A program made the position numbers and the translations under genes. Positions 16,691 through 58,830 of a stretch of DNA of 64,000 nucleotides are shown piece after piece. Numbering within the stretch: the stretch's first letter is position 1; each line of letters opens with the position of its first letter. The notes under the pieces are model-generated. The model did not search any database. It was not told the DNA's origin and saw only the letters and a program-made list of their open reading frames with translations. Source of the DNA: Tribonema minus (taxonomy: Eukaryota > Sar > Xanthophyceae > Tribonematales > Tribonemataceae); the NCBI GenBank assembly GCA_017506865.1, contig JAFCMP010000112.1, positions 186,001-250,000 of the forward strand. The letters run 5' to 3'.

Positions 16691-16760
16691 GTGACCTTTG
16701 CGCTAAAAGTTATAGCATCAACTGTTTGAGCTGCGCGTGCCTGAGTACACCACAGATCCT

Positions 16761-16825
16761 CGATGTTATCCACACAAACAACCGGCCTCCCTCGCGGCCC
16801 TTTTTAATACGAGAATATGAGTACA
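16761..16825 (+). repeat. Inverted repeat, left copy (partner at 19.90-19.98 kb)
   Basis: The core CCACACAAACAACCGGCC, then CCCTCGCGGCCCTTTTTA and ACGAGAATATGAGTAC, recurs in inverted orientation at 19900-19978. It contains the short palindromic block GGCC..GGCC. A related block in direct orientation follows the reverse-transcriptase ORF at 58876-58900. It may therefore be the 3' end of a retroelement family or the terminal repeat of a DNA element. Confidence 0.65.
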
Positions 16826-17305: not shown

Positions 17306-17737
17306 GCACACCCTCTGTATCTGAGTTGAAATAACTCCAGCCCCTACAGAGGTCCTTCGCATGTAGCAAGACACCACTTTTTGGGGAAAATGTCCTGAAA
17401 ACTTGGGTGATATCTGGCATCCTTGCCTAGTAAGAGTATGAAGGTCACCGCGTTCGGCCTGTGCTAGCACCCGCCACTACCTGCTGCTGTGCGCTGCCGC
17501 CTGCTCCTGTGCTGCTACTGCCCGCTACTTGCCCGCTGCTACCTGCACCCGTTTGCCTTCTGTATGGCCGCCTGCTGCTGCCTGCTCTCCTGCTGTGCCT
17601 ACTGTGTGCGCCACGCCTGTCTGCTGCCACTTTTGCTGCTGCTGCGATGGTCTGCCACCGCTGCTCACAGCTGCTGCTGCTGTGCTGCTGCTGCTGCTGC
17701 TGCTGACAGTGTGCTGCTGCTGCTGCTGCTGCTGAGC

Positions 17738-18180
<443 letters not shown>

Positions 18181-19899: not shown

Positions 19900-19978
19900 G
19901 TATTCTGGTACTCAAATTCTCGTAGTAAAAAGGGCCGCGAGGGGGGCCGGTTGTTTGTGTGGGCAACATGAGCAGTCT
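19900..19978 (-). repeat. Inverted repeat, right copy
   Basis: The reverse complement of the block at 16761-16825 lies here: GTACTCAAATTCTCGTA, AAAAAGGGCCGCGAGGG and GGCCGGTTGTTTGTGTGG. The similarity extends a few bases beyond the CCACAC end on both sides (ATGTT). No flanking target duplication is evident. Confidence 0.65.
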
Positions 19979-21077: not shown

Positions 21078-22845
21078 TTATCTTCTGGCGCGGGGCATGC
21101 GCTCCTGCAACCTTTCGCGATGGTCTAGCGCGTCATCATACATGGCACGCAGCCTGTGGTTCTCAACTCGGAGATCATGCAGACGACCGCGAACATTGTC
21201 ATTGTGCTCGGCCATAGCGAACATTGCATCACTCTCACGGCTGTATTTTCCGACAAATATGCCCCTGGCTCTACACTTGCTAGTCACCTCTGCCCACAGC
21301 TCGTACCTCTCATTGGCCAAGGCATCGCGTGCAACTTTCAGCGCTGCTACCTCCTGCCTCAGATGCTGTTCATCCTCCCTCAGCGACCGACTCTCCTCTA
21401 GATGCTCCGCTCTCATGTCCTCCAGCCGTGTAAGCCAACGGCTCTGCACATCCTGCATGTCCGCCGCCGTCGCCTCCGCGGCTTCTACGCTGGCGCGCAG
21501 ACGCTGTGTGTCCTCCTCTGCTGCCTCGCGCGCACGCCTGTCTAGCACCTTCTGCAGCACGTCCGTGCCGTGCTGAGTGTAGATGTGCTGCATGGTAGCC
21601 AGCGCCTGCTGCGGGGCGCCAGAGGCGAGTGTGCTGACGATCTGGCGCACATCCTGCTCGCCGCCATGTGTTATAGCGTGCGCGACGTGCGTCGCAGCTG
21701 CCTCCATGATGTGGGACAGCATGGCACTGTTGTTAAGGCCAAAGCCCCCTTGAACGACGTGACCGGGGAGCTCGATGTCTGACACCACCGGCCACAGTGT
21801 ACGCACCCCCGCATTGTTTGTTACTATGGTCCAACGATCGGTGTACACGTTGCCAGAGTAGTCCCTCGGTAGAGTCATGCGGTATCCGGTGGAAGCACGA
21901 GGCAGCGATGTGTGGAAGTGCTGCACGCCAAAAGAGCTGCTCATCCGCCCCATTGTGCTGAGGAACGACTTCAGGCCGTCGCGAGTCGGCTTGCATCCGC
22001 CTCCGAGGTGCACAAACAGGAAGAAGGACGGGACTGAAGCTCTGCTGCGCGTAGCCATGACAACCGCCGCGGCGTCCACCACATTGCACAGCAGCGCCGC
22101 GGTGCGTATGCGTGCGCAGATTGTCTGCGTATCGGCGCGTGGAAACAGCTGCCATGAGGGATTCCGTGCGTCCTCAACTTCCGCGACAGACCAGCCCTCC
22201 TCTTTCCGGTGGCGAAGATCCGTGAGGCGGTGTTCGGAGAAGATGAAGTCTGTGCCGCTGCTCGTCGTCTTGACGTACGCGACGTCGTGGATGCTGTTGT
22301 CGGGCAGTCGCTTCTGGAACAGCAGGGGGTGGTAGTTGATCTGGACGATGTAGCCGCCCCACTGCTGTGGCAGCCGCTGCTGCTGGCTCGCCACGAACTG
22401 CTGCAGGCGCTGGTACCCGTTGCTGAAACACGTCCGCATCCACCGAAACGCGAGCGACGGTTGCGGCAGTTCCTTGAGCGAACGGTACCAGTGGACCGGC
22501 AGCCGGCGCCGGTGCCGGTACCAGCGACAACTGCGCAGCAGCCGGTGGGAACAGGCGTCGTATCTCGTTCTGGCCCGCGATTATGCTGCTGGCCTCCGGC
22601 TGCACGAGGGTGATGGTGTCGCCGAGCTGTTGCTGCCTCAAAGCAGCTGCTATCTCCTTATAGTGGGCACGGCAGCTGCGGTTTGTCATGTTGATGTACA
22701 CTGATGCAGATGGCCCAGGCACAACGGCCTTGGTGGAGGGCACACCTCGCGCAGCTTGCAATACCAGCTCCGCTGCTGCGGGTACATCGCTGATGTACTC
22801 CAGCCGGTAAGCGCTGCACTTGTACGGATACTTGTTGGACGACAT
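21078..22845 (-). CDS. CSAYRL-family protein, with one frameshift
   Basis: It starts at the ATG whose complement is 22843-22845, just after a CTGCAAG/CACC splice junction; a 5'-UTR intron (donor GCG/GTGAGTG near 22930) precedes it. The N-terminal module reads YPYKCSAYRLEYISD..., then INMTNRSCRAHYKEIAAAL and IIAGQNEIRRLF, followed by an Ala/Pro-rich linker. At about 22425 the frame breaks by one base after VSVDADVF. The next frame continues without further breaks for about 450 residues: the middle domain (NGYQRLQQFV ... GWSVAEVEDARNPSWQLFPR ... GYRMTLPRDYSGN) and a C-terminal coiled coil ending ERMPRARR. The total of about 590 residues equals the intact copies. One indel in an otherwise clean gene could be a sequencing error or a young pseudogene. 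Function is unknown. Confidence 0.75.
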
Positions 22846-23096
22846 GGTGCTTGCAGCGGTGTCAGCAGCAGCAGTGGAGCCGGTGATGGTGTGCTCTGTC
22901 CTCGACCGCCACCCTGACAGCTGTACCGCAAGCACTCACCGCTCTCTATCTCAAGAGCAGCTTTGTTCCTCAGCCCACTGCTGCCGCCTAGTTTTGAAAA
23001 CGTCCCAAGGGGTGTCTGATCATTGTTCTGGATGCTGCTGCTGCTGCTGCTGCTGGTGGCGGCTGTGAAACCACATGACCGTTGATGTAATTGGTC

Positions 23097-23990
23097 TTTC
23101 AAGGAGGGGAGTGCAGCAAGTTGTGTTCTCAGTCCCTGACCTGCAGCTGCGAGCCCGAGAGCTGCGCCGCGAGCTCGGTGTCCAGGCCTCTGACGCATTC
23201 TTTCAAACTGTCTTGAAGGGTGTGTCTACAAAAAAGTTGTCTGGACCCGAGAGCTGAAGATGAGCTGTCGGGCTCTCGGGCTCTCGAGTGTCGGCTGCTG
23301 CTGGCGGGTTTCTAAAGCATGACCTTATTGTTGTTGGCCTCGTCAAGGCGACCAGCATCGGTGATGCCATACCATCTTCAAGCGTCACAAGGAGGCCCGA
23401 GAGCTGCGCCGCGAGCTCGGTGTTCGCCGCGAGCTCTCACAACACAAACTTCTTTTCCCAGGCCTCTGACGCATTCTTTCAAACTGTCACAAAGGGTGTG
23501 TCTACAAAAAAGTTGTCTGGACCCGAGAGCTGAAGATGAGCTCGCGGGTCTCGGGTGTCGGCTGCTGCTGGCGGGTTTCTAAGGCATGACCTTTGCTGTT
23601 CTTGGCCTCGTCAAGGCGACCAGCATCGGTGATGCCATACCATCTTTAGGTGTCGGCTGCTGCTGGCGGGTTTTTAAAGCATGACCTTTCGTGTTGTTCG
23701 TCTCGTCAAGGCGACCAGCATCGATGATGCCATACTATCTTCAAGCGTCACAAGGAGGCCCGAGAGCTGCGCCGCGAGCTCGGTGTCCCGCGAGCTCTCA
23801 CAACACAAACTTCTTTTCCCAGGCCTCTGACGCATTCTTTCAAACTGGCTTAAAGGGTGTGTCTACAAAAAAGTTGTCTGGACCCGAGAGCTGAACGGGT
23901 CTCGGGTGTCGGCCTGCTACTGGCGAATTTCTGAGGCATGACCTTTGTTGGGTGTTGGCCTCGTCAAGGCGACCAGCAGTGGTGATGTTT
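23097..23990 (+). repeat. Three tandem copies of a terminal-exon-like unit
   Basis: The plus-strand block ASDAFFQT..KGVSTKKLSG ending PES and a TGA occurs at 23185-23257, 23462-23533 and 23822-23894. Two copies are preceded by the strong acceptor CACAAACTTCTTTTCCCAG. Between them lie repeats of GCTGCTGGCGGGTTTCTAA, GTCAAGGCGACCAGCATCG and GCCCGAGAGCTGCGCCGCGA. Each copy keeps its stop codon, so they look like alternative last exons rather than an internal repeat. The protein fragment is not recognised. Confidence 0.65.
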
Positions 23991-23994
23991 TGTG

Positions 23995-23997
<3 letters not shown>

Positions 23998-24031
<34 letters not shown>
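23998..24031 (+). repeat. Short CTG tract
   Basis: About eleven CTG units directly follow the terminal-exon array. Confidence 0.9.
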
Positions 24032-24033
<2 letters not shown>

Positions 24034-25137
24034 TGCGATCCGCACCTTTGTCAATGGTTCTACTTTAAGTTCTTTTGGGCCACCTCAACTGCACCGGTGG
24101 TTGTAGCTGTCGTTATTTGTTGCATTAGATGACTTAAGGCGCGAGATGCAGATGATACTACAGGAGCGGGCGTGCAAGATTGACAAACATGGCTCACTGC
24201 CCTACTTGCAGCCAAGAAGGCGTTGCAGAACTACCGGTGGTGGCAGTGCTATAGCCTGCCTTGAATTGGCGACGGAGGCGCAACAATGCAGGCAAGGGCA
24301 AGAAGTGTGCGCACCACCATCCTTGATGAAATGCAGCAAGTCAGCATGCAGACATGTGCAGGAGAAGCCTGACACCACCGCTAATCCATGGTGTTGAGGC
24401 TGATCATGTTGAGCCCTCATGTAGGGGATGCTCCGACCTCCATCAAACTAATCCTTTGCTGATAGCTTAAAGCTTACCCTCTTGCAGTTCCTTTAGCTTA
24501 CGTTGGTGCGCTACTCTCCTACACAGTCAAGGTTTGTTGCAGCCTCACACCATCATCTGACTTGATTTGATCTTACCCATCTTTGCTTCTCCGTGTGCTG
24601 CATCACTGAATAAGAGGGGCCTATGACACATTATTGACGCTAAAAACAGTGACTTCACTCCTCAGTCACTTTGCAAGTCAGCTGTCTGTTTTGATCGCCC
24701 TTGAGTGGCTGACACAGCGGTCAGTCATCATTTGCGCCCATGGTACCCCACTTGGTCATCATATATAGCCGGGCAATGTCTTCTGCGCGACAGTTTCAAT
24801 TTGGCCTTCGATAACTGCGAGTTGCTGCACTCGCTGGAGTCTCTCATTCATGCAGAAGGCGCGGCGGCATGCAGCGCCTGCTTCCAGTGCGAATGCAAGG
24901 ATTGGCACCGTGGCGCATTGCCTCCGGCATGTCGCCCCGGCCGTCGCGGGCGGCGAGTGTCGGTGACGCCCCCCCCTGGCAGGCGCCTCATCGGCGGCGG
25001 GGGGGGGGAACCCGCTTGGTTTATCCCGCTCATCAGTGGTTTTTTTCTTCTTTTCAGGCCGGGCTTGTGGGGGGTTTCAGTCGTCGGCCGCTGGCCGGCT
25101 CCATCTGTCGCCAGCCGCTGGCTGGCTCCCTCGTTTT
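24032..25137. other. No gene recognised; GC-rich block at its right end
   Basis: 24.03-24.8 kb is featureless. From about 24.89 kb the sequence becomes GC-rich (CCCCGGCCGTCGCGGGCGG, a poly-G run near 25000) and leads into the direct repeats. Several long overlapping frames here follow from composition. Confidence 0.4.
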
Positions 25138-35600: not shown

Positions 35601-35642
35601 CTGAGATGAACGCTTGCTGACTTATTTTCCATCTTCAAGTAA

Positions 35643-37487
35643 GTGGCGGCGACCCTTCGTGCCCCCGGCACCGACCGCCTGGTTGCGGAGCTTGTGCAGA
35701 TGGAGGATGTGCAGGCTGCCTTCTCCATTCTGCGTCTTGCCGTCCCCGCCCGCGCAGGGCATGTCTCGCGCAATACAGCGCCATCCCTCACGCACGAGGA
35801 GCTACGGCGCTTCGACGCCATCACGCTAGCGGCCGTGGCCGCGCTGGCGCAGGAGCCATCGGCGGGTCTTACGCCGCCGGCCCACCAGCGCGCGCCGGCG
35901 GCGGGTGACGATTGCCGCGGCCCGCCGGCGGTTTCGGCGGCGGCGGCGCCGCCCTCTCTGTGGGCGGCGGCAGTGGCATGGGTACGCGGCGCCGACTGGG
36001 GTGGCGAGGCCCCAGTGACGCTACCAGCACATCAGCAGGTACGCGTGCATCTGCGGCTGGGGAGTGGTGGCTTTGGCGTGCTGGGCGCGGCGCCCCGTGC
36101 ATGTGCCGCATTTGCTGCACGTTCCCTCGAGTGCATGGGGCCGGCACTGGCGGCATTTCCAGTCGCGGCACGCAGCCGCGTCCTAGAGCATGCCCGCTAT
36201 GGCTTCACCTTCACCCAGATAGCTACCTGCCTGCAGCAGCTGCGCAGCGGCAGCGATGAGGCTGCAGCGGCCCTCGCACTGCTCCTGCCCACGGTCTGGT
36301 ACCAGGACTGGCGCCAGGACGACGGCGCATGGCGGGCGCTGCGCGATCTGCTGCAACGGGCAGGCGGAGCTGCGGGGCCGGGCATGCGGACTCGCGCCGG
36401 CGCGCGCCGCGCTGCTGCGCCAGCGGTGGCGCGCGAGCCAGGCTCTGCCCAGGCCCCGCCGGCCGCCGTGCTGCCGCGGCGTCAAGCGGCGCTATCACGG
36501 GTGCTAGACGCAGCGCTCGCCGCCACGCAGCTGCGTCGGCTTGAAGCAGCAAATGCGTTGGAAGCAGTCGCGGCGTGGCGCAGCGGCGCCTCTAAGGGGG
36601 CCATGGGTTTCTTGGCGCAATTGCCGAGCACTGACCCAGCGGAGACCATGTCCCCGCCGGAATTCCGCGAGACGCTGCGGCGCCACCTGGGCGTGGAGCG
36701 CCCCGCCCCCGCTGCGGCGCGGTGCCCCAAGTGCCATAGACCAGTGGACTCGGGTGCCCACCTGCGCCGCTGCACACAAGGGCTTAACGTCACGCGACAC
36801 AACTTGCTCGCAGACGCGCTCTTTCAGCTGCTCAAGCAGGTGGCCCACCTCCGCGGTCTCGACCGGGACACCCTTGCCCCCTTCCGCCGCTACGCGGCGC
36901 GCCACGGGTTCAACAAGTTCATGGACATCGTCTTTGGCAGCAACCAGGTCTGCCTTCCAGTCCCTAAAGTGCAGCCGAGCGCCGACGCGGTAGCAGCAGG
37001 CCGGTGCACTAAACTGCGCGGCGGCTTTGAAGTAGCTTGTTGCATAGACGTCACCATACGTGACAGCTCATGCCCCTCCCGCCTCCGTCAGGCTCAGGGG
37101 GGCGCGCGCGATGTGCAGCGCGTGCTTGAATCGGCTTCGCAGGAAAAGATAGACACATACGTAGTCTCAGGGGCCCTGGACCCCACTACACACACCCTAT
37201 TTTCCGCAGCCTTTGACCACTTCGGCGCTATGTCACGCGACACCCAAGCGCTGCTACACGCACTCGCCGAGCAGAGCTCGCAGGGCAGCTACAATCTCGC
37301 GCAGCGCGTTGCCTTCTGGCGCCGCCGCACCTCCCTCGCGCTACAGCGCGCGCTCACACGTGTCGTGATCGACAACTGGAACGCAGTCATTGCCCCTGAT
37401 GGCGACGTCAGCGCTTACCGCCGCATCGCACTGTTGCAAGTGCCGCGGCCCTCGCCGGCCAGCGCCGAACCGCCGGCTCCTCCGTAG
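35643..37487 (+). CDS. 5'-truncated non-LTR retroelement: post-RT region, CCHC finger, endonuclease
   Basis: The frame opens right after a TAA (35640-35642), with no ATG near, and runs 614 codons to the TAG at 37485-37487. Residues 1-350 are Ala/Arg-rich and match the post-polymerase region of the 54.9-kb element in pattern (RLGSGGFGVLGAAPRACAAF against RRGGLGMPLLGLLAPAAY). A CCHC finger follows (C361, C364, H373, C377; CPKCHRPVDSGAHLRRC), then the restriction-like endonuclease with FMDIVFG (D428) and CCIDVTIRD (D469), and a helical C-terminus. All polymerase motifs are missing. Abrupt 5' truncation is typical of target-primed reverse transcription. The GC-rich codon use differs from the surroundings. 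The copy probably cannot move by itself. Confidence 0.7.
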   Translation: MAATLRAPGTDRLVAELVQMEDVQAAFSILRLAVPARAGHVSRNTAPSLTHEELRRFDAITLAAVAALAQEPSAGLTPPAHQRAPAAGDDCRGPPAVSAAAAPPSLWAAAVAWVRGADWGGEAPVTLPAHQQVRVHLRLGSGGFGVLGAAPRACAAFAARSLECMGPALAAFPVAARSRVLEHARYGFTFTQIATCLQQLRSGSDEAAAALALLLPTVWYQDWRQDDGAWRALRDLLQRAGGAAGPGMRTRAGARRAAAPAVAREPGSAQAPPAAVLPRRQAALSRVLDAALAATQLRRLEAANALEAVAAWRSGASKGAMGFLAQLPSTDPAETMSPPEFRETLRRHLGVERPAPAAARCPKCHRPVDSGAHLRRCTQGLNVTRHNLLADALFQLLKQVAHLRGLDRDTLAPFRRYAARHGFNKFMDIVFGSNQVCLPVPKVQPSADAVAAGRCTKLRGGFEVACCIDVTIRDSSCPSRLRQAQGGARDVQRVLESASQEKIDTYVVSGALDPTTHTLFSAAFDHFGAMSRDTQALLHALAEQSSQGSYNLAQRVAFWRRRTSLALQRALTRVVIDNWNAVIAPDGDVSAYRRIALLQVPRPSPASAEPPAPP

Positions 37488-37842
37488 ATTTAGTTATTGC
37501 AAGCCCGATTTATCGTGCGCGCAGCCCATGCGGTCCAGGACATAATATACATCTTAAAGTATTGAAAAAAATCACTTGAAAAAAAAACAGTTTGCCGCAG
37601 GAAAACAAAAAGGTCGAGACCTGAAAAAAGTGAGCTTGCGGGTTGCGGGCGGATTGCGGCTAGCGGATGTGGGAATCACACAGTACAGGGACTGTCAGGA
37701 CACAGCTCACCTGGTCAGACAGCATCTGAGCACCACGGTGAGTTTGCACCTTCCATAGAGCGTTGCCGCGTTCAGCTATGCCCTTTTTTTTTGTGATTCA
37801 AGGTCAAGTATCTGTCTCTACCCGCTGCTGCACCCTGCAGAT
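37488..37842. other. 3' sequence of the retroelement and 5' sequence of the next gene
   Basis: A-rich patches (37564-37630) follow the retroelement stop. GCTTGCGGGTTGCGGG at 37632-37648 is the near reverse complement of CCCGCAACCCGCAAGC at 35586-35601, just before the retroelement ORF. From 37774 the sequence matches the upstream region of the gene at 43.0 kb (CAGCTATGCCC, a T-run, ATTCAAGGTCAAG) and ends in a shared acceptor, GCTGC(A/G)C(C/G)CTGCAG. Confidence 0.5.
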
Positions 37843-39609
37843 ATGCCTCCAGAGCCTCTGAACAAGGATCCGTACAAGTGCAGCGCCTACCGCCTGCAAT
37901 ACACCAGCGCCCTGCGACCGGCAGAGGCACAGGAGTTGGTGCTGCAAGCCGCGGCTCGAGTGCAATCCACAAGGGCTGTGGCGGAAGCGCCTGGTTATGT
38001 TGCCATCAATATGCCTAGCCGCAGCTGCAGAGCACATTATCAAGAAGTAGCTACCAAGCTGAGGGCGCAGTGCGGCGATACCGTCAGCCTTGTCCAGCCA
38101 GAGCAAGACAACAGGATTATCGGCCAGGAGGAGATCCGGCGAATTTTCGCTACAGCACCAGCAGCAATTGCTGCGCCCATGGTGTCGCTGCTACCGCTTT
38201 CACGGGCCCCTGGGGTCGCTGATGGCGCTATGGTGCCGGTTTCCATGAGAGGTGCAACCAGCATGTCGCTGGATCCAGACCTGTACCAGGCCTTCAATAG
38301 TCAACGCCTGCACGAGTTCATGGACAACAACCAGCGGCCGCAGAAGCAGTGGAACGGGTATATCATAAAGGTCTACTACACGCCCTTACTGTTCCAGCTG
38401 CGGCTGCCCGACAACCAATTTCAGCGCGTCTCCTACTTCAGGACGACGAGCGGTGAGCCAGAGTTCACCACAGCTGAGCACCTCTCAGACCACGCCACCA
38501 GTTGTGAGGGTTGGCATGTTGCGGAGTCCCACAGCCCAAGCAACCCAATGTGGCAAGAATTTCCGCATGCCGACAAGCATAACATCTGCGCGCGTATCCG
38601 CGAGACAACACTGCTGTGCAGTGTTGTAGGGGCTGCGGCAGTCGTGATATCCTCTCGCAGAGACTCGGTGCTGGCTCCGGACTTCTACTTGTTTGTGCAC
38701 CTGAAAAACGGATGCAGGCCAACACGCGATGGCATCATTTCATTCCTCGCGACTATGAAGAAGGTATCAGGGCGATTTCGAGTGCGGCTATTTCATACGC
38801 ATTTGCCGTCCGCCCGGTCTGGGTACCGATACAGCGTGCCAAAGGACAGCATGGGCGACCTGTGTGACGAGGGGTGGCTGATGGTGACGGATCAGGGGGG
38901 GGTGCGCACGCCATGGCCTGCAGCATCCGACGTTGAGGTGCCACAGGTGGTCGCTGCGAGGGGTTTCGGCTTGGACAACGCTGCCATGCTTGGCTGCATC
39001 ACGGAGGCAGCTACATGTAATGTGGCGCACGCGATCAAGTACGGCAGCGAACAGCAAGTGTGCGACGCAATCGTTGCACTCGCTCCCGGCGCCCCGCAAC
39101 AGGCGCTGGCGGTGCTGAAGCATCTCTTTGTGGAGCACGGCGCGGACGTGCTGGAGAAGGTGCTCGGCAGGTATGCGTGTGATGCAGCGAAGGAGGAGGC
39201 GGAGCAGCTGCGCGCCGGAATCGCAGCTGCAAAGCGGGAGGCGGAGGAGCTGCAGATTCAGCACAGCATAAATATTTCGGATGTGGGCAAACTGCGGGCG
39301 AGGCAGCATCAGGAGTGCCACACACTCAGAGCGGAACTGCAGCAACGGCAACAGGAGGTCGACATATTGCGAGCAATGCGGAGTGCATTGAGCGAAAAGA
39401 GGTATGACTTGTGGACAGAGCTGACAATGCAGTGTAAGGCTCGCGGCATCGTTACAGGCCAGTACACTGCAGAGAGCGATGCAATTTTTGAACAGGCTCA
39501 ACACAATGACGATCACCGCAGCCAACTGGCCAATGTCTTGAAGGAACAACAGCGGCTGAGGGAGCAATATGATGCAGCGCTAGAAAAGTGCGATATGATG
39601 CAGGACTAG
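37843..39609 (+). CDS. CSAYRL-family protein, intact, 588 residues
   Basis: It starts at the ATG two bases after a strong acceptor (CACCCTGCAG/AT), an arrangement shared with the 43.0-kb copy, so a 5'-UTR intron is likely. Residues 8-105 form the N-terminal module (DPYKCSAYRLQY ... NMPSRSCRAHYQEV ... IIGQEEIRRIF). Residues 106-145 are an Ala/Pro linker. Residues 146-400 are the conserved middle domain (HEFMDNNQRPQKQWNGYIIK, GWHVAESHSPSNPMWQEFPH, NGCRPTRDGI, SGYRYSVPKDSMGDL). From about 405 to the end there is a long coiled coil (ADVLEKVLGRYACDAAKEEA onward). There is no signal peptide, membrane segment or known catalytic motif. TGTAA occurs 25 bases after the stop. It lies 355 bp after the truncated retroelement on the same strand. 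Function is unknown; a DNA- or RNA-binding or structural role cannot be told from sequence. Confidence 0.8.
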   Translation: MPPEPLNKDPYKCSAYRLQYTSALRPAEAQELVLQAAARVQSTRAVAEAPGYVAINMPSRSCRAHYQEVATKLRAQCGDTVSLVQPEQDNRIIGQEEIRRIFATAPAAIAAPMVSLLPLSRAPGVADGAMVPVSMRGATSMSLDPDLYQAFNSQRLHEFMDNNQRPQKQWNGYIIKVYYTPLLFQLRLPDNQFQRVSYFRTTSGEPEFTTAEHLSDHATSCEGWHVAESHSPSNPMWQEFPHADKHNICARIRETTLLCSVVGAAAVVISSRRDSVLAPDFYLFVHLKNGCRPTRDGIISFLATMKKVSGRFRVRLFHTHLPSARSGYRYSVPKDSMGDLCDEGWLMVTDQGGVRTPWPAASDVEVPQVVAARGFGLDNAAMLGCITEAATCNVAHAIKYGSEQQVCDAIVALAPGAPQQALAVLKHLFVEHGADVLEKVLGRYACDAAKEEAEQLRAGIAAAKREAEELQIQHSINISDVGKLRARQHQECHTLRAELQQRQQEVDILRAMRSALSEKRYDLWTELTMQCKARGIVTGQYTAESDAIFEQAQHNDDHRSQLANVLKEQQRLREQYDAALEKCDMMQD

Positions 39610-39902
39610 ACAATTGCACACTGAAAAACTGCCTGTAATACGATGTGTACAAGATGTTCTGCCATGTCTAGTAGTAGTCATTTTTCTGTTGTGTGCGTTC
39701 GGCGCGGCTGCAAAGGTGCCTTTAATCCAGTTGCAGAGAAGCTGTTGATGCTTGCTTTGTCACAATGGTACGCATGTCATACCGCCTACATCTTACACAG
39801 CATCGTAGCATAAATTAAGGTAAGCCATCACCTGTCACATACAAAGCAGTGTAAGCATTATGTCACAGCTCGCCTCAACTTAGCCATTTGTCAATATTGC
39901 AG

Positions 39903-40031
39903 CGATGCAATTTACCAACAGGCTCCTCGACACAACGACAACCACTGCAGCCAACTGCACAATCTCTTGAAGGAAGCAAAGTGGCTGAGGGACCAGTATG
40001 ATGCAGTGCTAGAAAACCTGCAGATTGAATA
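39903..40031 (+). pseudogene. Duplicated last segment of the 37.8-kb gene
   Basis: After an acceptor-like CAATATTGCAG the frame reads SDAIYQQAPRHNDNHCSQLH, then LLKEAKWLRDQYDAVLENLQ and a TAG. This mirrors the last 43 residues of the gene just upstream (SDAIFEQAQHNDDHRSQLAN ... LREQYDAALEK). The 3' flank is also duplicated (CAGTCATTTTTCCGTTTTGCG against AGTCATTTTTCTGTTGTGTG). The offset is about 425 bp. It may be a dead tandem fragment or an alternative last exon; the intact reading frame and the acceptor leave the second possibility open. Confidence 0.7.
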
Positions 40032-40095
40032 GCTGCCTGTCATGCACTATGTGCTCTGTGATGTCAACTTCCAGTCATTTTTCCGTTTTGCGTTT

Positions 40096-43019
40096 GGCTT
40101 GAATTGCAACCAAGCCTTTAAGTCGATGTCATGTCATGTGGTGTTTGTGCGACCTTGCTCTGTCACTGGCGCGGTTTGCCGTGCTGCAGCTTACAAAAAC
40201 ATTAGACGGGCCAGGCCCTTGGTTTGATGCCGCACGTGTCGATAAGAATCGGATCAGATGTGCTAACAGTACGAGATCAGTCAGCAGGCAGCAACGAGCG
40301 TCATGCTGCTCCTGCTCCTGCTGCTCCTGGCGCTGCTGCTAATGGTGCTGTTGCAATTGATCGCTGAAATAGATTGCAGTACCTCGCCATCGTTCCGTGC
40401 ACGCAACAGCACAGCGTGAGGGCGCTCTTAGTAGCTGTTGTTTTTGTACGTGCTGCTGCTGCTTTCTCTTGTGCTCGTCAAGTAGTAGAGCATCATCAGC
40501 ATCAGGACAGCAAAACATGATTGGCAGCAATGGTGCCAGCTGGCAACGCCGACACTGGCTGCCCCATGTCCCTGAAAAACATGCCAGTACTTGTTGGTAA
40601 GCGCTGCTCATGCAGCAATGGCTACGTTTTTTTAACAGGTTCTTGAAGCAGTGCTGCTCGCTGCAATTGAAGTCTCTGAGCCCATCCCATAATATGTGCA
40701 CAGCTTGTGGTGTCGAGTGGCGCAATGTTATCATAGTGCGATGGCGGTAACAATCATACAGGCAGTTGTTTCTGACCATCTTAAAGTTGTGTCTCGCCTG
40801 TTCCAGGCTACGTCTCATCTGCCAGGCAGTGCTTCTTTGCTGCAATGAGGCCATCCTGTGGTATTGTGAGTGCGGACCCCTTCATGCGGCACGCGGCACA
40901 GGTGCTACCTGCACCACCTCTGCTCAACGCTATCTGGGCTGCTGAGTAGGAGGGCGCTTGATAGCAGTTTGGTGTGATACTCAGGCTAGCGCTGTAGTCA
41001 GCGCCAGGTACGTCGATAGCATGCATGAACTGCCACTGCAAAGGCAAAGGTGTTAATCAGTTTTGTGCTGATGTGTGTGGAATGAAGATCCAACATGGGC
41101 GCTTTTTGTAGGCACGAGTGACTTAATTTTCTACACGCACATTCATTTGCAGGTGCAAAACCCAAGTATCGCGAGGTTGCAGCCATGGTGTGCCAAATGT
41201 GCTGCCTGATTCACTCACCCACCATGCGCTACTGTCGCTGTTGCCTCTTGCTGCAAAAGGTGTTGTCAAGTCGGCAACGAAGTGGCCGGGTATGCATGCC
41301 CGACATATTTGCGAAGAATATGAGGTGATGAATGGTGAGTTCTTGTGTGATACTCAGCGACAAGTTGTGGACGAGGCCATTGTCTGGCATATTTAATGTT
41401 CTGACACGCTTGTGCACTACTGGCAAAGCTGGCAGTCGCAGGTGATGATGTTCTGACATGCTTGTGTACTTTTGGCAAAGCTGGCAGTGGCAGGTGATGA
41501 TATGAGGATGTGACTTCTCGAGCAGCAGCTGCTGCCTACAGCAGCAAAGCTTTACATAAACGAGTACTCTTCATTCAGCCATGCATCACAGTCCGACAAA
41601 GCTTGCTGCAGAAATCACTGCTTATCTCCTAATGCACTGCCTGTTGTCATGCACAGCGCATCACCGCCATGTCAGTTGCAGTGCACTGCTGCTGTCATGC
41701 CTTACTTACCGCGCACCACTTACACTTGCAGGCTGCCAGTCTCAACTGTCACTGGCAGCTTGGGCACAGGAAATGTGTTGGAAATGTAGGGTACACCTAC
41801 TACTTGGAGGCAGCCTCATAGACCACGTTGGTGTAAGTGCTGAGTGTGATGTCGCCATGACAACAATCATCATTCGTTGATGAGCATGCCAGCTGCTTTG
41901 ACCTGGACTCTGCTTCATCTTTATTGCTGCTCTCTCATTTTATTTCAGGCATATGCTTCTTGCACAAGTGATCACTCGAGCTGCTCGTGCTCAACGGTAC
42001 CAACTTGCTCTCTGTGGCCTATGCAGCAACAGCGCTATGAAGGGACTGGCGCTCCCTCACATGGGTAACTGAGGTTTCTTTGGAGCCAATTGCCTGCATC
42101 AACTGCGTTACAGCTGTGATTGAGCTCGTTATCACTTCGTAGCACAACAGCAATGATGGTGCCTGCCTGACGTGGTGTTTCAATGCATGTGCTGTATGAA
42201 GCGTAATGTCATCATTTCTCTTCGCCTCTGGTGCTCTCTGTTTTGCTGCTTGGTAATGCGTCAATGCTGCTGCCACATGCGGACTTGTGCTTGCAGTCTG
42301 TGTTGCTGCTGCACGTCATGCACCCGAGGGTTGCAACTACTGCCTGCTTCGCATGCTGCGTGCCACACATAGCATCTGCATCTGCCATCACTCACACGGA
42401 CTTGGCACTATCACCTGACTCCGGTCAAATGCTGCCTGACTCACACAATCGTGATGGCCATGACCACACAAACACGATGGGCAGAACAGCATGCGTGGGT
42501 GCAAGAAAGAATGAATACATTCTTGTTATACAGTCATGCATGCGCACAGACATCTGCATGGCAGTACAGGGCGTCACAATCTGCAGCATGGCAATCGAAC
42601 GCTTACAGTGGGTGACTGCAGCAAGAAACGCAAACAGCAAGCAAAGACTAGAATAATGCATTTGAGCGCCGACACATGGATGACTTATGAGGAGTATTGT
42701 CATGTGACAGCGTGTGTGCGGACTACTTGCTGTTGAGCTTCTTGCTGGTGCCTGCAGTGCTGCTTGGTGCACATTGGCCTGTCGTGGTCTTTCACCGTAG
42801 CGCTGCGGGGCTAGCACCACAACCTGCACCACCTGAGTCCCTGCACCCCTAAATATGCAGGATGCCTTTTTCATGACATTGGAGGCCACGGCACTATTGC
42901 TGCATGATGCGCACACATCAACAACTTTCATGACACTATCGCAGTCAAGAGGTCAAGCTGAATGCACACAACAGAACAAAACTTAAATTGAGACGACAGA
43001 ATATCTTGTACACATCACA
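40096..43019. other. No gene recognised
   Basis: Short ORFs, CTG-rich patches and a 52-bp tandem duplication (41401-41503, GTTCTGACA(C/T)GCTTGTG...GGCAGGTGATGAT) are present. I find no domain or well-supported exon. Confidence 0.4.
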
Positions 43020-44780
43020 TTACAGGCTGTTCCGCAAGATGTTGCAGGTGTATAGCGCGTCATCGTGCTGCTCCCTCAGATACTGCTTTTGCTTCAAGAG
43101 TTTTCGCAATTGGCCGCGGTGGTTGTCGTTGTGTTGAGCTTGTTGGGAATTTGCATCGGTCTCTGAGGTGTACTGGCCTATGAAAATGCCACGAGCCTTA
43201 CACTGCGTTTTCAGCTCTGCCCATAAGTTATACCTCTCCTCGCTTAAGTCACTGCATGTCGCTCGCAGCATTGTCAACTCCTGCTGCTGCGGCTGAAGTT
43301 CGGCGCTGAGCATATTATTCTCCTGTTGGTGTCTTGCCCGCAATGTTGCCAGATCTGAAATGTGCCTGCTGTGCTCAAGCTGCAGCTCTTCCACCTCTTG
43401 TTTCGCCGCTGCTACTTCAGCACGCAGGCGGTCCGCATCCTCTTTTGCTGCATCGTGCGCATACTTGCCCAGCACCTTCTCCAGCACCTCTGCGCCGTGC
43501 GCCGTGTACAGACGTTGCAACACCGCCAGCGCCTGTTGCGAGGTGCCGGGGCCGAGCGTAACGACGATTTCGCTCACCTGCTGTTCGCTGCAGTGCTTGA
43601 TCGCGTGCGCTACATGACGTGTAGCTGCCTCCCTGATGCAGCACAGCATGGCAGCATTGTCCACTCCGAAGCCCCCTGCAGCGATCGCCTCTGGCACCTC
43701 AAAGTCGGACGCTGCCGGCCATGGCGTGCGCACGCCCCCACACCCCGTCACCAGCGTCCATCTGCTGTTGTGCAGGTCGCCCATGCTGTCCTTCGGCAGG
43801 CTGCTCCGGTACCCGGTTCGAGCAAACGGCAGGGAGGAATGAAAGCGCTTGACATAAAATTGCCAACTCATCTTTTTCATCGAGTCGATGAATGAAACGA
43901 TGCCATCGCGTGTCGGCTTGCATCCCTTCCTGAGTTGCGCGAACAGGTAGAACGACGGAGCCAGCACTTCGCGAGTGGACATGACGACCGCCGCAGCCCC
44001 TACGACAGTGCATAGTAGTGCTGCCTCGCGGATGCGTGCACAGATCTTCTGCTTGTCGGCATGCGGAAACTCGCGCCATATTGGGTTGTTGTGGTCGTCA
44101 GCGTCTGCAATGTGCCAGCCCTCCTGCATCAGGCCCTCGCGGCCCCTACCGTGGTTGTTCGTAATGAACTCCGTGTTACCATCGGCGGATGCCTTGAAGT
44201 AGAGGGCCTCGTGTACTTGATTGTCGGGCAGCCGCACTAAGAACTGTAGAGGTCGGTAGTCGATCCTGATGATGTAACCGGCCCACTGCTCCTGCAGCCG
44301 CTGATTGTTCTCCATGAACTGGTGCAGGCGCTGATTATTGAAGGCGTGAAATACGTCTGGATCCAGCGAAATGCTAGGAACACGTCCCGCAGCGACAGGC
44401 ACCATAGCGCCCTCAGCGACTCCGGGCGCCCGTGACAGCGGTAGCAGCGACACCATTGGCGCAGCGGTGGCAGGTGCTGGACCGAAGAGTCGCCGGATCT
44501 TATCCTGGCCAATGATCATGCTATTGCGCTCTGGCTGGACAAGGCTGACGGTATCGCTGCTCTGCGCAGTCAGATTGGCAGCTATATCTCGACAGTGGGC
44601 CCTGCAGCTTCGGCTAGGCATGTTGATGACCACATATCCAGGCGCTTCCGCCACAGCCTTGGTGGACTGCACTTGAGCCGCGGCTCGCAGCACCAATTCC
44701 CGTGCCTCTGCCGGTGGCAGGGCGCTGATGTATTGCAGGCGGTAGGCGCTGCACTTATACGGATCCTTGGTTGATGGCAT
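43020..44780 (-). CDS. CSAYRL-family protein, intact, about 586 residues
   Basis: The longer open frame begins at 44855, but I choose the ATG at 44780, two bases after the conserved acceptor CGCGCTGCAG/AT and collinear with the 37.8-kb protein; the first 25 codons of the longer frame would be intron. The order is as in that copy: KDPYKCSAYRLQYISALPPA, NMPSRSCRAHCRDIAANL and IIGQDKIRRLF; linker; middle domain (HQFMENNQRLQEQWAGYIIR, GWHIADADDHNNPIWREFPH, KGCKPTRDGI, TGYRSSLPKDSMGDL); and coiled coil (GAEVLEKVLGKYAHDAAKED to the end). The stop TAA lies in TGTAA. The upstream 60 bp and the 3' flank match the 37.8-kb copy, so these two are the closest pair. Function is unknown. Confidence 0.8.
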   Translation of the reverse strand: MPSTKDPYKCSAYRLQYISALPPAEARELVLRAAAQVQSTKAVAEAPGYVVINMPSRSCRAHCRDIAANLTAQSSDTVSLVQPERNSMIIGQDKIRRLFGPAPATAAPMVSLLPLSRAPGVAEGAMVPVAAGRVPSISLDPDVFHAFNNQRLHQFMENNQRLQEQWAGYIIRIDYRPLQFLVRLPDNQVHEALYFKASADGNTEFITNNHGRGREGLMQEGWHIADADDHNNPIWREFPHADKQKICARIREAALLCTVVGAAAVVMSTREVLAPSFYLFAQLRKGCKPTRDGIVSFIDSMKKMSWQFYVKRFHSSLPFARTGYRSSLPKDSMGDLHNSRWTLVTGCGGVRTPWPAASDFEVPEAIAAGGFGVDNAAMLCCIREAATRHVAHAIKHCSEQQVSEIVVTLGPGTSQQALAVLQRLYTAHGAEVLEKVLGKYAHDAAKEDADRLRAEVAAAKQEVEELQLEHSRHISDLATLRARHQQENNMLSAELQPQQQELTMLRATCSDLSEERYNLWAELKTQCKARGIFIGQYTSETDANSQQAQHNDNHRGQLRKLLKQKQYLREQHDDALYTCNILRNSL

Positions 44781-45465
44781 ATCTGCAGCGCGCAGCAACG
44801 GGTAGTGACAGATGCTTGACCTTGAATTAGAAAAAAAATGGGCATAGCTGTGCATACTAACTAGAGTATGCCAGCCTGTTATACTGTTGTGCAGTGTGCC
44901 AGCTGGTCTAAGCCAGATCTTACAAAGTTCAGATCACTAGGTGAGTTTGAATTCGGATACCACTTAGATTCAGTCCTAAAAGTTGCCTACATGTCATCTC
45001 ACTATACTATAGCATTTCGAGTCTTATAAACTTGTTTTATAAACATGTCAGCATGCTATGCTGTTGTGTGTTGCTTACCTAAGTCTTACTGGAAGTTGTG
45101 CATTCTAACTAGAGTATGCCAGCATGTATTGATGCAGCCTATGTGAAACAAAATTGAGACCTGAATCAGAGGCAATGCAGGCATGATCAGATGTTGAGTT
45201 GGAACCTTGTTAAGTGAGTCTCTGACGCATGGTGGAGTTCCTCTTTGAAGAATTCGTGCATCAGGTGTTTCGAGATGAGAGTGCTCCTTGCGCCTGATAG
45301 GCAAGCGAAGCTAAATAAAGTTGCGCTGTTGTCAAAGCACAAACACCACAATCGCATTGCTTTGAGCCGAACAATGATATTATGGTGATTGAAACGCACT
45401 CACTCCTATCACATTCTGACTTGTGATCGTGATGGTGTGCGATGGCTGGTGGCACATGAGTCATG
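44781..45465. other. Upstream region of the 43.0-kb gene; no other gene
   Basis: This region holds the presumed 5'-UTR intron end and two direct copies of an element around CTAACTAGAGTATGCCAGC (44858-44877 and 45105-45124). They could be regulatory or simply repetitive. No TATA or other promoter motif can be assigned. Confidence 0.35.
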
Positions 45466-54930: not shown

Positions 54931-57900
54931 GTACTACGGTTCACCACGACTGCCAACCCCTTCCGCACTCAGCTGCAGTGCACCCAGTGGGCACGGCTAG
55001 TGGAGCACGCCACACGACTACTGGCGGACGCCACAGACAGTGCACGTGAGGCGGCACGGGTGCGCCTCCACCATGGTGCCGGGGCGTTTGCTCATCAGGT
55101 TTCTCAGACTCTAGTGCAGCGCGGCTACAGGCTGCTGCACCTGCTAGCAGCAATGGCCTTTGGTAGGCAACCGGAGGGAACCGGTATGCCGCCTGCGGCC
55201 CGGCTGGCAGCGTTGCTGTCTGGCGACTTTGCGGAGCTACTGAGAAAGACGCTGTCAGCAGCAGCGGCGCTGCGGGCCCCCAAACCAAACAACGCAGCTA
55301 CGGCGTCGGCACAAACGAACTTCGATGCCGACTGGACGGAGGCTGACTCCAGGCAGCAAACAGCATGCGCTGCCCTCTCAGGCAAGCGACGGGGGGTAGG
55401 CCTGGCTGCCGCACGACTAGAGGCGCGTGAAGCATGCGCCCCAGCAGACGAGGTCACGGCACAGGTGCTGGCAGCAAAGCACCCTGAAACTGGCACCCGG
55501 CCCGGGGTAGTCGATACGCCAATGGAGCAAGTGCGCGGCCTGGTACGCGACGCCCGGCGGCACTGCTTGCACGGCGCAGGGGTGGCAACGACCGCCGGGC
55601 CCGCTGGCAGCGGCAGTCCCGTCTTCGAATCGGGTCAGGCGCATGATCGCAGCGATAGGCCTGAGGATGCTGCCAGCGCAGCCGGACGGCGCCTCGAGGT
55701 GGAGGCGACAGACATACTGTCGACCTTGTCCGCAGCAGGGGCGGGGAAGGCAGGAGGGCTGGACGGCCTACGCTATGAACACCTCTTGATGGCCGCTGGG
55801 CCTGGTGCACCAGTGAAAGCAGCCACCCGCCCCGTGGGCAGTGCCTCGCCAGGACTAGCTGGTGATTCAGAATCGGATGTGATGGAACCGGCATTCGCCC
55901 ATCACCTGGCCAAGGTGTTCACGACGCTGCTTGTTGAGCCCGAACTGCTGCCGGAGCAATCGCAACGGCTTCTCCGCGCCGCGGCCCTCTCAGGCATAGG
56001 ACAGAAGCGGCGTCCGATCGCCTGCTCCAGTGTCTGGCGCAGACTCCTCGGGTCCACAGCGGCACGGGGTGTCAAGGGCAAAATATCGGGGCTGCTGGCC
56101 TCCATGTCGCAGTTTGGCGTAGGATACCGGTCTGGCGTCGAGCATGTGGCAGCGCGCGCGCGCGTGTGGCACGAGCTGTATGGCACCACAATCCAGCTGG
56201 ACTGTGAGAACGCATTTAACAGTGTGGATCGCGCCGCCATTGTGCGGGGACTTATGCTCTTCTGTCCGGAGCTGCTCCCGCACTTTGAGTCCGTATACTG
56301 TGGTGACACTGCCCCAGAGATGCGAGTGGAGGTGAACGGTGAAGCTCGCATTATCTGCTCCCACCTAGGGTGCCAGCAAGGGGACCCTCTAGGGCCGCTG
56401 TACTTTGCAGTGGCAGCGGCATTCCTACTCTTCTACCCTGATGGAGTGAGTGCGACGCCCGGCAGTATGCCGGCCTACGGCCACAGCACAGCGGAACCGC
56501 CAGCCCCGCACTGCGCTTTCCTGGATGACCTCAACGTGCTGCAAGCTGCCTACTTCGACGATGCAGCGGCCGCTGGGGTGGCAGAGGTGATCCGTCGGCT
56601 TGCGGCAGGGGGCCTACGCGTTCGACCAGACAAGTCGCTGGCCATTGCCATGCGCGGCACAGTGTTTGATGAAGCGGCCAGAGCACGCCTGCGCGCCCTT
56701 GACATACCGTTTGTGGACGCCACCATGCCAGAATCCAGTCAGGGCTTTACGTCGGTCGGGGTACCGGTAGGGCACCCAGCCTATGTGCATGCTGCCATGA
56801 GCAAGCATCTTGTTGACGCAGGGACATGGCGATTGTCGTGGCAGCTAGCTGGGATGGCGCGGCATCACCTACAGGCAGCACAGTTCATTCTGCGCAGGTC
56901 ACTGACGAAGCGCATGGGCTTCTTAGCTCGGGTCGTTGACACGGCTTTGAGTGAGACATGGCTGCACGCATTTGACGGGTTCTGTGCATGGACGCTTGAA
57001 CGCATGCTGCACCTGCACGGCTGCGCTACCGCGGCAGTCATGAAGTCACACCTGCTGGCCGCCTGCACTGCTGGTGACAATGAGGTAGCCAGCAGTGGCA
57101 GCGTGCTGGTATTGCCGCGCTTGGGCCCGCCAGAATTCACGGACATCGCAGTGCCACTGCGGGCGTCACGGTTGCCGGAGCGACGAGGCGGTCTGGGCAT
57201 GCCGCTTTTGGGGCTACTGGCACCAGCCGCATACACGGCCCAGGCATGCACAACACTGCGGCCTGCAATAATTCATGCCACTGTGGCAGCAGGGGCCCTG
57301 AGGCTCGGCACTGACGAACACGGCGCAGTCACCTGGTTCGCGCAGCACTCATGCGCAATACGCGAGGACCAGGGACTGCCGCCAATCATCGAGGCCGTGC
57401 GACGCTCTACGCGAGCGCTGACAGCTGATGGCGGCGAAAAATCACGCACAGCTGTGGCCGAGCAGCTCCCAGCATCGTTGCTACGGTGGGCAGCGGATAC
57501 AACGGCCGCAGCGTCGACGCTCCCCACTGCGGTGCAAGCGATCTACGCCGCAACTGCCGTCACGGAGACGGGGACCACTGAGCCAGCCCCACACACCCAC
57601 GGCATTGTGCCTGGCGCCGAGGCGGCCGCTGCGGCGGCGACCGTACCTGGCCCTCAAGCCGCTGCCGCGGCTGCCTCTTCCACGCCCGCTAAAACACAAA
57701 CTAGCGCGGAAGAAAGCAGCTGCAGCGGCGGGCAGGAGGACGACGACGACGACTGGGAGGCCTATGCTGACGAGATCTGCAGAAAGGTAGTGCCCCGCCG
57801 CCGGCGCGGTCACTTCACGCACGGACTACAAGCCGGCCTTTCAAATGTTCTTCGACGTCAATACGAGGACTGCCTGGTGGAGGACCTAGAGGCTGCCTCG

Positions 57901-58830
57901 GCTGGTGCCGTGGGCAAGCCGACGCAGGCTACACTTACTGGTGACTTGCGTGACACCAGCCGCCGCCGCCAACAGGCTAGCGCGCGGGTCCTGGCGCAGC
58001 TGCGCAGCCAGCGTGCGTCCGGGGCAATGGCGTGGATGAGCGTGCCACCCGCTGCCAATGACCGCCCGGGTGCGGCGCCCATGTCCAGTATGGCAGCAGC
58101 CACGATGATTATGGTTGCGATCTTTATAGACGGGTGGGGCATACAGGGCGAGGTGTGCCCATGGCGGTGCAGTGACGTGAGCCCCACCTCCACGCATGCG
58201 ATCAGCTGCCCCAGCCAGCACATACGGGGGCACAACGCGACACACACTGCCCAAAAGCGGTGCCTACAGCGCATCTTGAGACAGCACCATGTCTCTATTG
58301 TCCGCAATGAGGACGCTAGCGTCTTCAAGGTACCGGGGTATCGGGCGGACACAGTCATTGACCCAGGGTGTCTGCACTTTAGCAGTGCATACCGTAACAA
58401 GGGAATAGTGCTAGACACAAGTGTGCGCGCACCCACAGCGAGCTCGTACCTGACAGGCAAAACAAATGCCTCGAACACGGACGGCTATGCTGCTGGGGTG
58501 GGGGAGGACGCGAAGGTCAAGCACCACACCGGCACCTTGACGTCATCTTGGGCTTTTGTGCCGTTCGTGCAGGAGTCGTACGGACGGCTGGGCAAGCAGA
58601 CAAGCCTTTTTGTTAAGGAGTTGGCAATGCACTCAGCACTGTGCTCAGGGGGGGGGAAGGCAGATGTGTTACGCAAGGCCGGGTTAGCTAAGCGTCAGAT
58701 CCACATTGAGCTGAGCATATCGCTGGCGCGGGAGTTGGCGGAGCGCGTCATGGCATACACACGTGGAGCGCGAATGCTGGGCTGTGTTGCGGCGCCGGTA
58801 TCCAAACTCCTAGGGCACAGCGCAGACTAG
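54931..58830 (+). CDS. Non-LTR retroelement ORF: reverse transcriptase, CCHC finger, restriction-like endonuclease
   Basis: The frame is open for 1299 codons from a stop at 54928-54930 to the TAG at 58828-58830; no ATG or acceptor clearly marks the true start, and the 5' end is probably truncated. Numbered from 54931: fingers GKAGGLDGLRYEHL and KRRPIACSSVWRRLLG; motif A LDCENAFNSVDR (D424); motif B CQQGDPLGPLYFA (about 482); motif C AFLDDLNVL (DD at 532-533); motif D LRVRPDKSLAI; and motif E GVPVGHP. A CCHC-type finger starts at C1076 (CPWRC...H...C, first spacing one residue longer than in the other copies). The endonuclease has RADTVID (D1140) and VLDTS (D1162). All polymerase motifs look intact. 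The domain order RT-finger-endonuclease is that of the R2/NeSL type. It lies inside the kinase intron, antisense. Confidence 0.85.
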   Translation, partial: VLRFTTTANPFRTQLQCTQWARLVEHATRLLADATDSAREAARVRLHHGAGAFAHQVSQTLVQRGYRLLHLLAAMAFGRQPEGTGMPPAARLAALLSGDFAELLRKTLSAAAALRAPKPNNAATASAQTNFDADWTEADSRQQTACAALSGKRRGVGLAAARLEAREACAPADEVTAQVLAAKHPETGTRPGVVDTPMEQVRGLVRDARRHCLHGAGVATTAGPAGSGSPVFESGQAHDRSDRPEDAASAAGRRLEVEATDILSTLSAAGAGKAGGLDGLRYEHLLMAAGPGAPVKAATRPVGSASPGLAGDSESDVMEPAFAHHLAKVFTTLLVEPELLPEQSQRLLRAAALSGIGQKRRPIACSSVWRRLLGSTAARGVKGKISGLLASMSQFGVGYRSGVEHVAARARVWHELYGTTIQLDCENAFNSVDRAAIVRGLMLFCPELLPHFESVYCGDTAPEMRVEVNGEARIICSHLGCQQGDPLGPLYFAVAAAFLLFYPDGVSATPGSMPAYGHSTAEPPAPHCAFLDDLNVLQAAYFDDAAAAGVAEVIRRLAAGGLRVRPDKSLAIAMRGTVFDEAARARLRALDIPFVDATMPESSQGFTSVGVPVGHPAYVHAAMSKHLVDAGTWRLSWQLAGMARHHLQAAQFILRRSLTKRMGFLARVVDTALSETWLHAFDGFCAWTLERMLHLHGCATAAVMKSHLLAACTAGDNEVASSGSVLVLPRLGPPEFTDIAVPLRASRLPERRGGLGMPLLGLLAPAAYTAQACTTLRPAIIHATVAAGALRLGTDEHGAVTWFAQHSCAIREDQGLPPIIEAVRRSTRALTADGGEKSRTAVAEQLPASLLRWAADTTAAASTLPTAVQAIYAATAVTETGTTEPAPHTHGIVPGAEAAAAAATVPGPQAAAAAASSTPAKTQTSAEESSCSGGQEDDDDDWEAYADEICRKVVPRRRRGHFTHGLQAGLSNVLRRQYEDCLVEDLEAASAGAVGKPTQATLTGDLRDTSRRRQQASARVLAQLRSQRASGAMAWMSVPPAANDRPGAAPMSSMAAATMIMVAIFIDGWGIQGEVCPWRCSDVSPTSTHAISCPSQHIRGHNATHTAQKRCLQRILRQHHVSIVRNEDASVFKVPGYRADTVIDPGCLHFSSAYRNKGIVLDTSVRAPTASSYLTGKTNASNTDGYAAGVGEDAKVKHHTGTLTSSWAFVPFVQESYGRLGKQTSLFVKELAMHSALCSGGGKADVLRKAGLAKRQIHIELSISLARELAERVMAYTRGARMLGCVAAPVSKLLGHSAD

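Follow-up and report, generated by a model that had tools for sequence, protein, structure and literature searches.

A multicopy protein family without a recognisable domain in an algal genome

Family genes in the window

We analysed a window of 64,000 nucleotides (C112:186001-250000, the whole stretch of DNA considered here) from a genome of 158 Mb in 554 contigs. We concentrated on a multicopy protein family that is present in this window as two intact genes, named P1 and P2, and as degraded copies. Letters such as B and D denote its subfamilies, which are described below. The family members in the window are the following.

37843-39609, plus strand: P1, intact family gene of 588 amino acids (aa); uninterrupted frame with N-terminal module, linker, middle domain and C-terminal coiled coil
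43020-44780, minus strand: P2, intact family gene of 586 aa; uninterrupted frame, convergent with P1
21081-22845, minus strand: frameshifted B-type copy, whose frames join near 22423-22427
15918-16666, minus strand: truncated B-type copy, with the C-terminal third (15918-16562) and a middle-domain scrap (16511-16666)
39814-40029, plus strand: duplicated C-terminal fragment downstream of P1 (E value 2.6e-9; 0 of 1000 shuffles score equally)

The initial annotation had described the copies at 37.8 and 43.0 kb as intact, the one at 21.1 kb as frameshifted and the one at 15.9 kb as internally deleted, and our analysis agrees on all of them. P1 and P2 are 64-65% identical in protein over near-complete length. 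The 21.1-kb copy takes residues 1-145 from the frame 22845-22423 and residues 147-576 from another frame, 22427-21126. The 15.9-kb copy has lost about 146 codons between the middle-domain scrap and the C-terminal third (437 bp in the copy on contig C507), and its entire N-terminus is missing as well. P1 and P2 have duplicates further along the same contig, at C112:2067464-2069230 (95% DNA identity) and C112:2078129-2079886 (98% aa identity), respectively. The fragment at 39814-40029 was absent from the initial annotation, and its counterpart lies at C112:2075100.

Layout, copy number and constraint

The family proteins have about 590 to 670 residues and end in a C-terminal coiled coil of about 110 to 170 residues. 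The same layout had been proposed for all copies, and this is backed by an alignment of ten members (some partial) and by matches in the N-terminal part. The alignment has 24 invariant columns, nearly all within the middle domain, and the layout is unchanged in anciently split subfamilies that are only 24-28% identical to P1. The N-terminal part of D members matches that of P, B and C members, i.e. across close and distant subfamilies, at E values of 2e-4 to 1e-3. The claim that the proteins have no recognisable domain also held: neither Pfam nor PDB searches gave a known-domain match, the N-terminal modules of proteins P0001 and P0002 had zero Pfam matches up to an E value of 10, and no relative was found among PDB sequences. 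A weak structure model (mean predicted local distance difference test, pLDDT, of 50.0; predicted template modelling score, pTM, of 0.28; five rows) gives a strand-helix-strand-strand-helix-strand order at the N-terminus and a long C-terminal helix. The modelled N-terminus may resemble ferredoxin-like or RRM-like alpha-beta domains such as CutA1, PII-like SbtB and designed ferredoxin folds.

A genome-wide search with P2 returned 84 matching stretches and one with a distant member (L045) returned 83, counts that are lower bounds. Once both query sets were clustered within 2.5 kb, they defined at least 66 family places on 35 contigs, in line with the earlier suggestion of an expanding family. These places are clustered: 30 of the 66 lie within 25 kb of another one, against about 1.4 expected from a simple random estimate. 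Some contigs are redundant (haplotypes), which inflates the copy counts. For example, loci L024 and L025 are identical across 4116 bp, and contigs C179 and C90 resemble haplotypes of one region. The family genes of C536:1395-60374 are mirrored (1.4k plus, 12.7k minus, 47.5k plus, 58.4k minus) with equal scores, an arrangement that suggests either a large palindrome or a fold-back of the assembly.

A tree of 29 hand-picked open reading frames (ORFs) separates a P group (P1, P2 and their duplicates), a B group (the 21-kb copy, C33, C109, C507 and others), a C group (C171, C201 and others) and the deeper groups D, E and F. Within the B group, support falls below 0.9 at several inner branches.

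We then estimated the ratio of nonsynonymous to synonymous substitution rates (dN/dS, by NG86) for 13 chosen pairs, which are partly non-independent; the C33-C109 pair takes in the shifted end of C109. The ratio ranges from 0.20 to 0.67. It is below 1 in all 13 pairs, with a 95% interval entirely below 1 in 10 of them. The comparison of P1 with P2, which the initial annotation had put forward as a check, gives 0.40 (0.32-0.50) and indicates purifying selection. Lower values were obtained for C33 with the copy at C112:148k (0.22, 0.16-0.28) and for C179-C507d (0.20, 0.15-0.25), and the other pairs lie between 0.36 and 0.67. Among the regions of the P1-P2 pair (one of 3 pairs out of the 13 analysed by region), dN/dS is 0.47 in the N-terminal module, 0.26 in the linker, 0.46 in the middle domain and 0.28 in the coiled coil. 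The family protein is constrained, though loosely.

Upstream DNA, the duplicated unit and neighbouring elements

Family copies share noncoding DNA ahead of their start codons. In the window, this concerns three segments.

22846-24572, minus strand: upstream noncoding segment of the 21-kb copy, with tandem monomers of about 265 bp, a probable intron in the 5' untranslated region (5'-UTR) and the beginning of the region between the genes
37773-37842, plus strand: conserved 70 bp ahead of the P1 start codon, probable 3' part of the 5'-UTR intron; donor-like GGTGAGT at 37737
44781-44850, minus strand: conserved 70 bp ahead of the P2 start codon, counterpart of the P1 segment (88.6% to P1)

The initial annotation had suggested that copies with a start begin just after a 5'-UTR intron. 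This is plausible from the sequences, and we regard such an intron as probable. A donor-like site (GGTGAGT, GGTGGGT or GGTGAGC) is retained in all five aligned B-type copies. On the putative acceptor side, a pyrimidine tract and TGCAG precede ATATG in P1, P2 and the P2 duplicate, and ACATG in the P1 duplicate. The point that counts against the intron is that the donor-like site of P1 is absent from the corresponding position of P2.

The upstream segment (window 23150-24572) was found at 10 places, nine of which adjoin a family gene, and there are two additional short matches. The remaining place, C515:71433-72622, has no family gene detected alongside and is possibly a decayed family copy. The segment is part of a larger duplicated unit. 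About 8-9 kb are homologous among C507, C434 and C290 (main pieces 85-95%), where a B-type gene on the minus strand and a D-type gene on the plus strand stand head to head, separated by a repeat-rich region of 3.9 to 5.0 kb. The order of the B and D genes is unchanged on C64 and C532, with the genes 7 and 14 kb apart. In total, the D-type partner is present at five of the nine family places carrying the upstream segment. The homology of the window's segment to other units stops at 24572, where the unit breaks off in the window; on the right side, unit homology continues past the D gene to the end of the compared DNA.

The repeats vary in number and type. There is one monomer on C507, about two on C290 and at least four at C112:148k. 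The C group has an upstream repeat of 352 to 380 bp that takes in codons 7-29 or so of the gene. This repeat has nine extra matches (query 21-87, 21-77 or 10-82), eight of which adjoin a copy, three of these being near-identical copies. The D copy on C179 has upstream arrays of 591-bp, 108-bp and 46-bp repeats. Since the upstream repeats and the probable 5'-UTR intron travel with the copies, the family seems to have spread as DNA.

The family had also been proposed to be element-borne, and this we could not sustain. No reverse transcriptase (RT) or transposase was recognised by eye in the ORFs of at least 120 aa on C507 and C290. Pfam searches with 10 non-family ORFs (from C507, C290 and the flank L072) gave nothing above cut-off; one ORF on L072, initially read as a sugar-dehydrogenase stretch, had no Pfam match up to an E value of 0.1 and was dropped. 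The two RT proteins of the window had no tblastn match in the unit loci compared, and terminal inverted repeats were found neither between the outer 1.7 kb nor within the pieces compared. All of these searches covered DNA that stops short of the unit's right end. In some pairs of copies, homology ends just past the stop codon, and no target-site duplications were established at family copies. Inverted repeats of about 55 to 75 bp (window ~16750-16820 and ~19900-19970) flank 3.1 kb beside the truncated 15.9-kb copy, and on C507 and C290 their motif recurs past the D gene.

RT-containing elements do occur in the neighbourhood. A 5'-truncated copy of an element resembling long interspersed nuclear elements (LINEs) lies upstream of P1 (window 35642-37549, plus strand). 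A first look at this element gave 3682 candidates, of which 72 places were scored. Its C-terminal stretch of 613 residues is 100% identical in all 72, window copy included, and a frame of 1399 aa is present in 48. This identity suggests that the element has been very recently and massively active. The piece ahead of P1 was inserted after the duplication of P1, because the duplicate lacks it and a 12-bp direct repeat (11/12) flanks it; at the empty site of the duplicate, the BLAST pieces overlap by 23 bp. A second frame, of 1276 aa (window 55000-58830, plus strand), has an RVT_1 match (E value 7.4e-7) of 29.5 bits, for a cut-off of 29.6. Pieces resembling the C-terminal end of this frame are found close to family loci L039, L049 and L050. 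Overall, the RT proteins of the window match pieces near L001/L011, L039, L041, L049 and L050, which look like separate insertions.

The initial annotation had included a fifth, distant relative at 0-0.5 kb, which our tests do not support.

1-543, plus strand: open frame, earlier taken for a C-terminal relative; profile relationship not significant

Against the main family profile this frame scores -0.5 bits unfiltered, and 37 of 1000 shuffles with the same residues do as well; against the distant-family profile, 128 of 1000 shuffles score as well. Its sole other match in the genome (C532:323271-323798, 84%) is 1.1 kb off a family gene, so it may be a conserved neighbour gene of the family.

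Other features of the window include a frame of 205 aa (14173-14787, plus strand) with a HerA-like helicase C-terminal match above the Pfam cut-off (E value 1.9e-5), a (GCT)n array of about 172 units with 97% matches (17670-18180), and a MYND-like stretch at about 20270 that was read by eye only. Elsewhere, a MYND-finger frame (L045:3344-3958 on C179, E value 3.4e-6) lies just downstream of a distant family gene, and a second, related piece occupies 4164-4379. A stop-free frame of 971 aa (L062:267-3179, i.e. C179:81766-84678) lies upstream of a distant family member. It has 25 matching stretches genome-wide and weak Baculo_PEP_C/Apolipoprotein matches under cut-off.

Origin and meaning of the family

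We searched for relatives of the family outside this genome. Pattern scans and tblastn with family queries on viral contigs (IMG/VR) gave no relative, nor did pattern scans of the GTDB bacterial and archaeal genomes. A search of the literature at listing level, on lineage-specific, multicopy or bidirectional algal gene families, gave no matching description.

The host itself can be placed from its genome, which has 92 light-harvesting matches. One light-harvesting exon has diatom-type FCP chains as best matches in PDB. For a second exon, multi-domain LHCI chains come on top, followed by cryptophyte/red-lineage chains; the organisms are those that we take the chain names to indicate. The telomere-type repeat is TTAGGG, with a single match for the TTTAGGG/TTTTAGGG type. 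From these sequences we infer that the host is a chlorophyll-c-type alga. A green alga was considered and ruled out by the light-harvesting exons, with their chlorophyll-c/red-lineage PDB matches, and by the TTAGGG-type repeat. Genome-wide there are 3991 forward and 3071 reverse matches to (CCCTAA)4 (7062, overlapping). Among the first places listed, matches occur inside contigs such as C1, and a long array opens C2. Because they are scattered through contigs, such repeats cannot serve as a chromosome-end mark for a subtelomeric location.

Several explanations can be proposed for such a family. It could encode the ORF1-like or gag-like protein of a retroelement. LINE ORF1 proteins combine a nucleic-acid-binding module with a coiled coil, and some LINEs have tandem monomers at their 5' end. 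The algal family shares with them a small alpha-beta domain and a long coiled coil, to the extent that the weak model can be trusted for its ferredoxin-like N-terminus, as well as the many copies, many of them dead, and the tandem monomers upstream of the genes. RT pieces also lie near five of the loci (L001, L039, L041, L049 and L050). However, the copies retain the noncoding DNA ahead of the gene together with a probable intron, when retrotransposition is expected to lose the intron and usually the promoter, and no linked RT was recognised by any of the three approaches used (ORFs of C507 and C290 read by eye, Pfam, and tblastn with the window's RT proteins), all on DNA that ends before the right border of the unit. 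The RT piece ahead of P1 is a later insertion, at its right end the unit stays homologous past the D gene, and the sole ORF1 match in PDB is a non-significant one to the coiled coil (E value 0.31). The domain order of human L1 ORF1p is also opposite to that of the algal family. We thus regard a retroelement origin as unlikely. It is most improbable that the family is carried by endogenous giant-virus-like large DNA viruses integrated in the algal genome. In favour of such an origin, the genome has 10 matches to the giant-virus-type major capsid protein (best 131.6 bits) and none of the 14 control genomes has any. Examples of these matches are given below.

C40:414256; C112:1104336; C179:469997; C90:1094952; C21:306666: major capsid protein matches

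Moreover, an intronless ORF of about 970 aa and a MYND-finger ORF adjoin one distant family copy. However, on C112, C179 and C90, which hold both, over 380 kb separate the capsid matches from family places (the major capsid protein being the only hallmark searched). The matches of the ~970-aa protein lie mostly away from family genes, and a scan of viral contigs with this protein, like those with the family queries, gave no relative.

One may also think of a diversifying repertoire, e.g. of surface variants, self-recognition or defence, in which intact and broken copies would exchange sequence by gene conversion, driven by the upstream repeats. Trypanosome VSG arrays are the model for such repeat-driven conversion. 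By analogy, the clustering of intact and broken copies, the fact that genes and upstream repeats travel together and the presence of several subfamilies within one cluster would fit. The dN/dS values well below 1 show no diversifying selection on average, and we find this explanation quite unlikely. A more speculative possibility, to which we give very little credence, draws on the head-to-head paralogues and the repeat-rich region. They could be what is left of a two-gene unit that propagated itself with no polymerase or transposase that can be recognised, or of a hypervariable repertoire with monomer-driven copying between intact and broken genes.

The explanation we favour, with some reservation, is a birth-and-death family of host nuclear genes, apparently lineage-restricted, that encodes oligomeric binding proteins. 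The family would have been copied as DNA segments and not through RNA. Its proteins would self-associate via the C-terminal coiled coil, and the putative ferredoxin-like N-terminal module would, with the conserved middle domain, bind a partner, most likely a nucleic acid or another protein. The tandem upstream monomers may act as promoter or enhancer repeats. They may also be substrates for unequal exchange, by which copies would spread and copy number would vary. To our knowledge, no specific family matches this one, and we compare it with lineage-restricted multigene families as a class. Orphan multigene families with birth-and-death evolution are likewise multicopy and clustered, mix intact and broken genes, evolve under purifying selection and have no outside homologues that were found. 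The algal family differs from them by the tandem monomers that travel with it and by the distant paralogue found head to head at five places, where both genes are broken.

Several observations weigh against this explanation. The initial annotation had named dN/dS near 1 together with stops in most copies as the pattern that would speak against a functional family. The first part is not seen, but the copies are mostly damaged: among the 30 close-relative places (at least 39% identity to P0002), one long frame (a single stop-free match of more than 500 residues) is retained in nine, including C109, which is shifted near its end. At the other 21 places the copy is interrupted or truncated, or runs off the end of its contig. 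The dN/dS intervals extend beyond 1 for three young pairs with few differing sites (P2 and its duplicate, C179-C90 and C536b-C224), and in the middle domain of the C171-C201 pair the ratio reaches 0.85. Both genes are interrupted or truncated in all five head-to-head pairs, so no working pair was seen; for example, on C434 and C64 only N-terminal pieces of the D gene are left. The proposed binding step is a guess, because function rests on a poor model, whose mean pLDDT of 50.0 and pTM of 0.28 are accompanied by 42.5 for the middle-domain model. Finally, lineage restriction is relative to Pfam, PDB, viral contigs, bacteria and archaea, with this genome as the eukaryote covered, and the collections searched may omit records very near this genome.

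If the self-propagating unit or the conversion-driven repertoire were true, either one would represent a novel way of amplifying genes in an alga. Independently of this, our analysis adds a sizeable protein family under selection, for which no relative was found in databases. The duplicated unit is defined by a gene, its upstream monomers and an opposed paralogue, and it makes the route from gene to family datable and testable.

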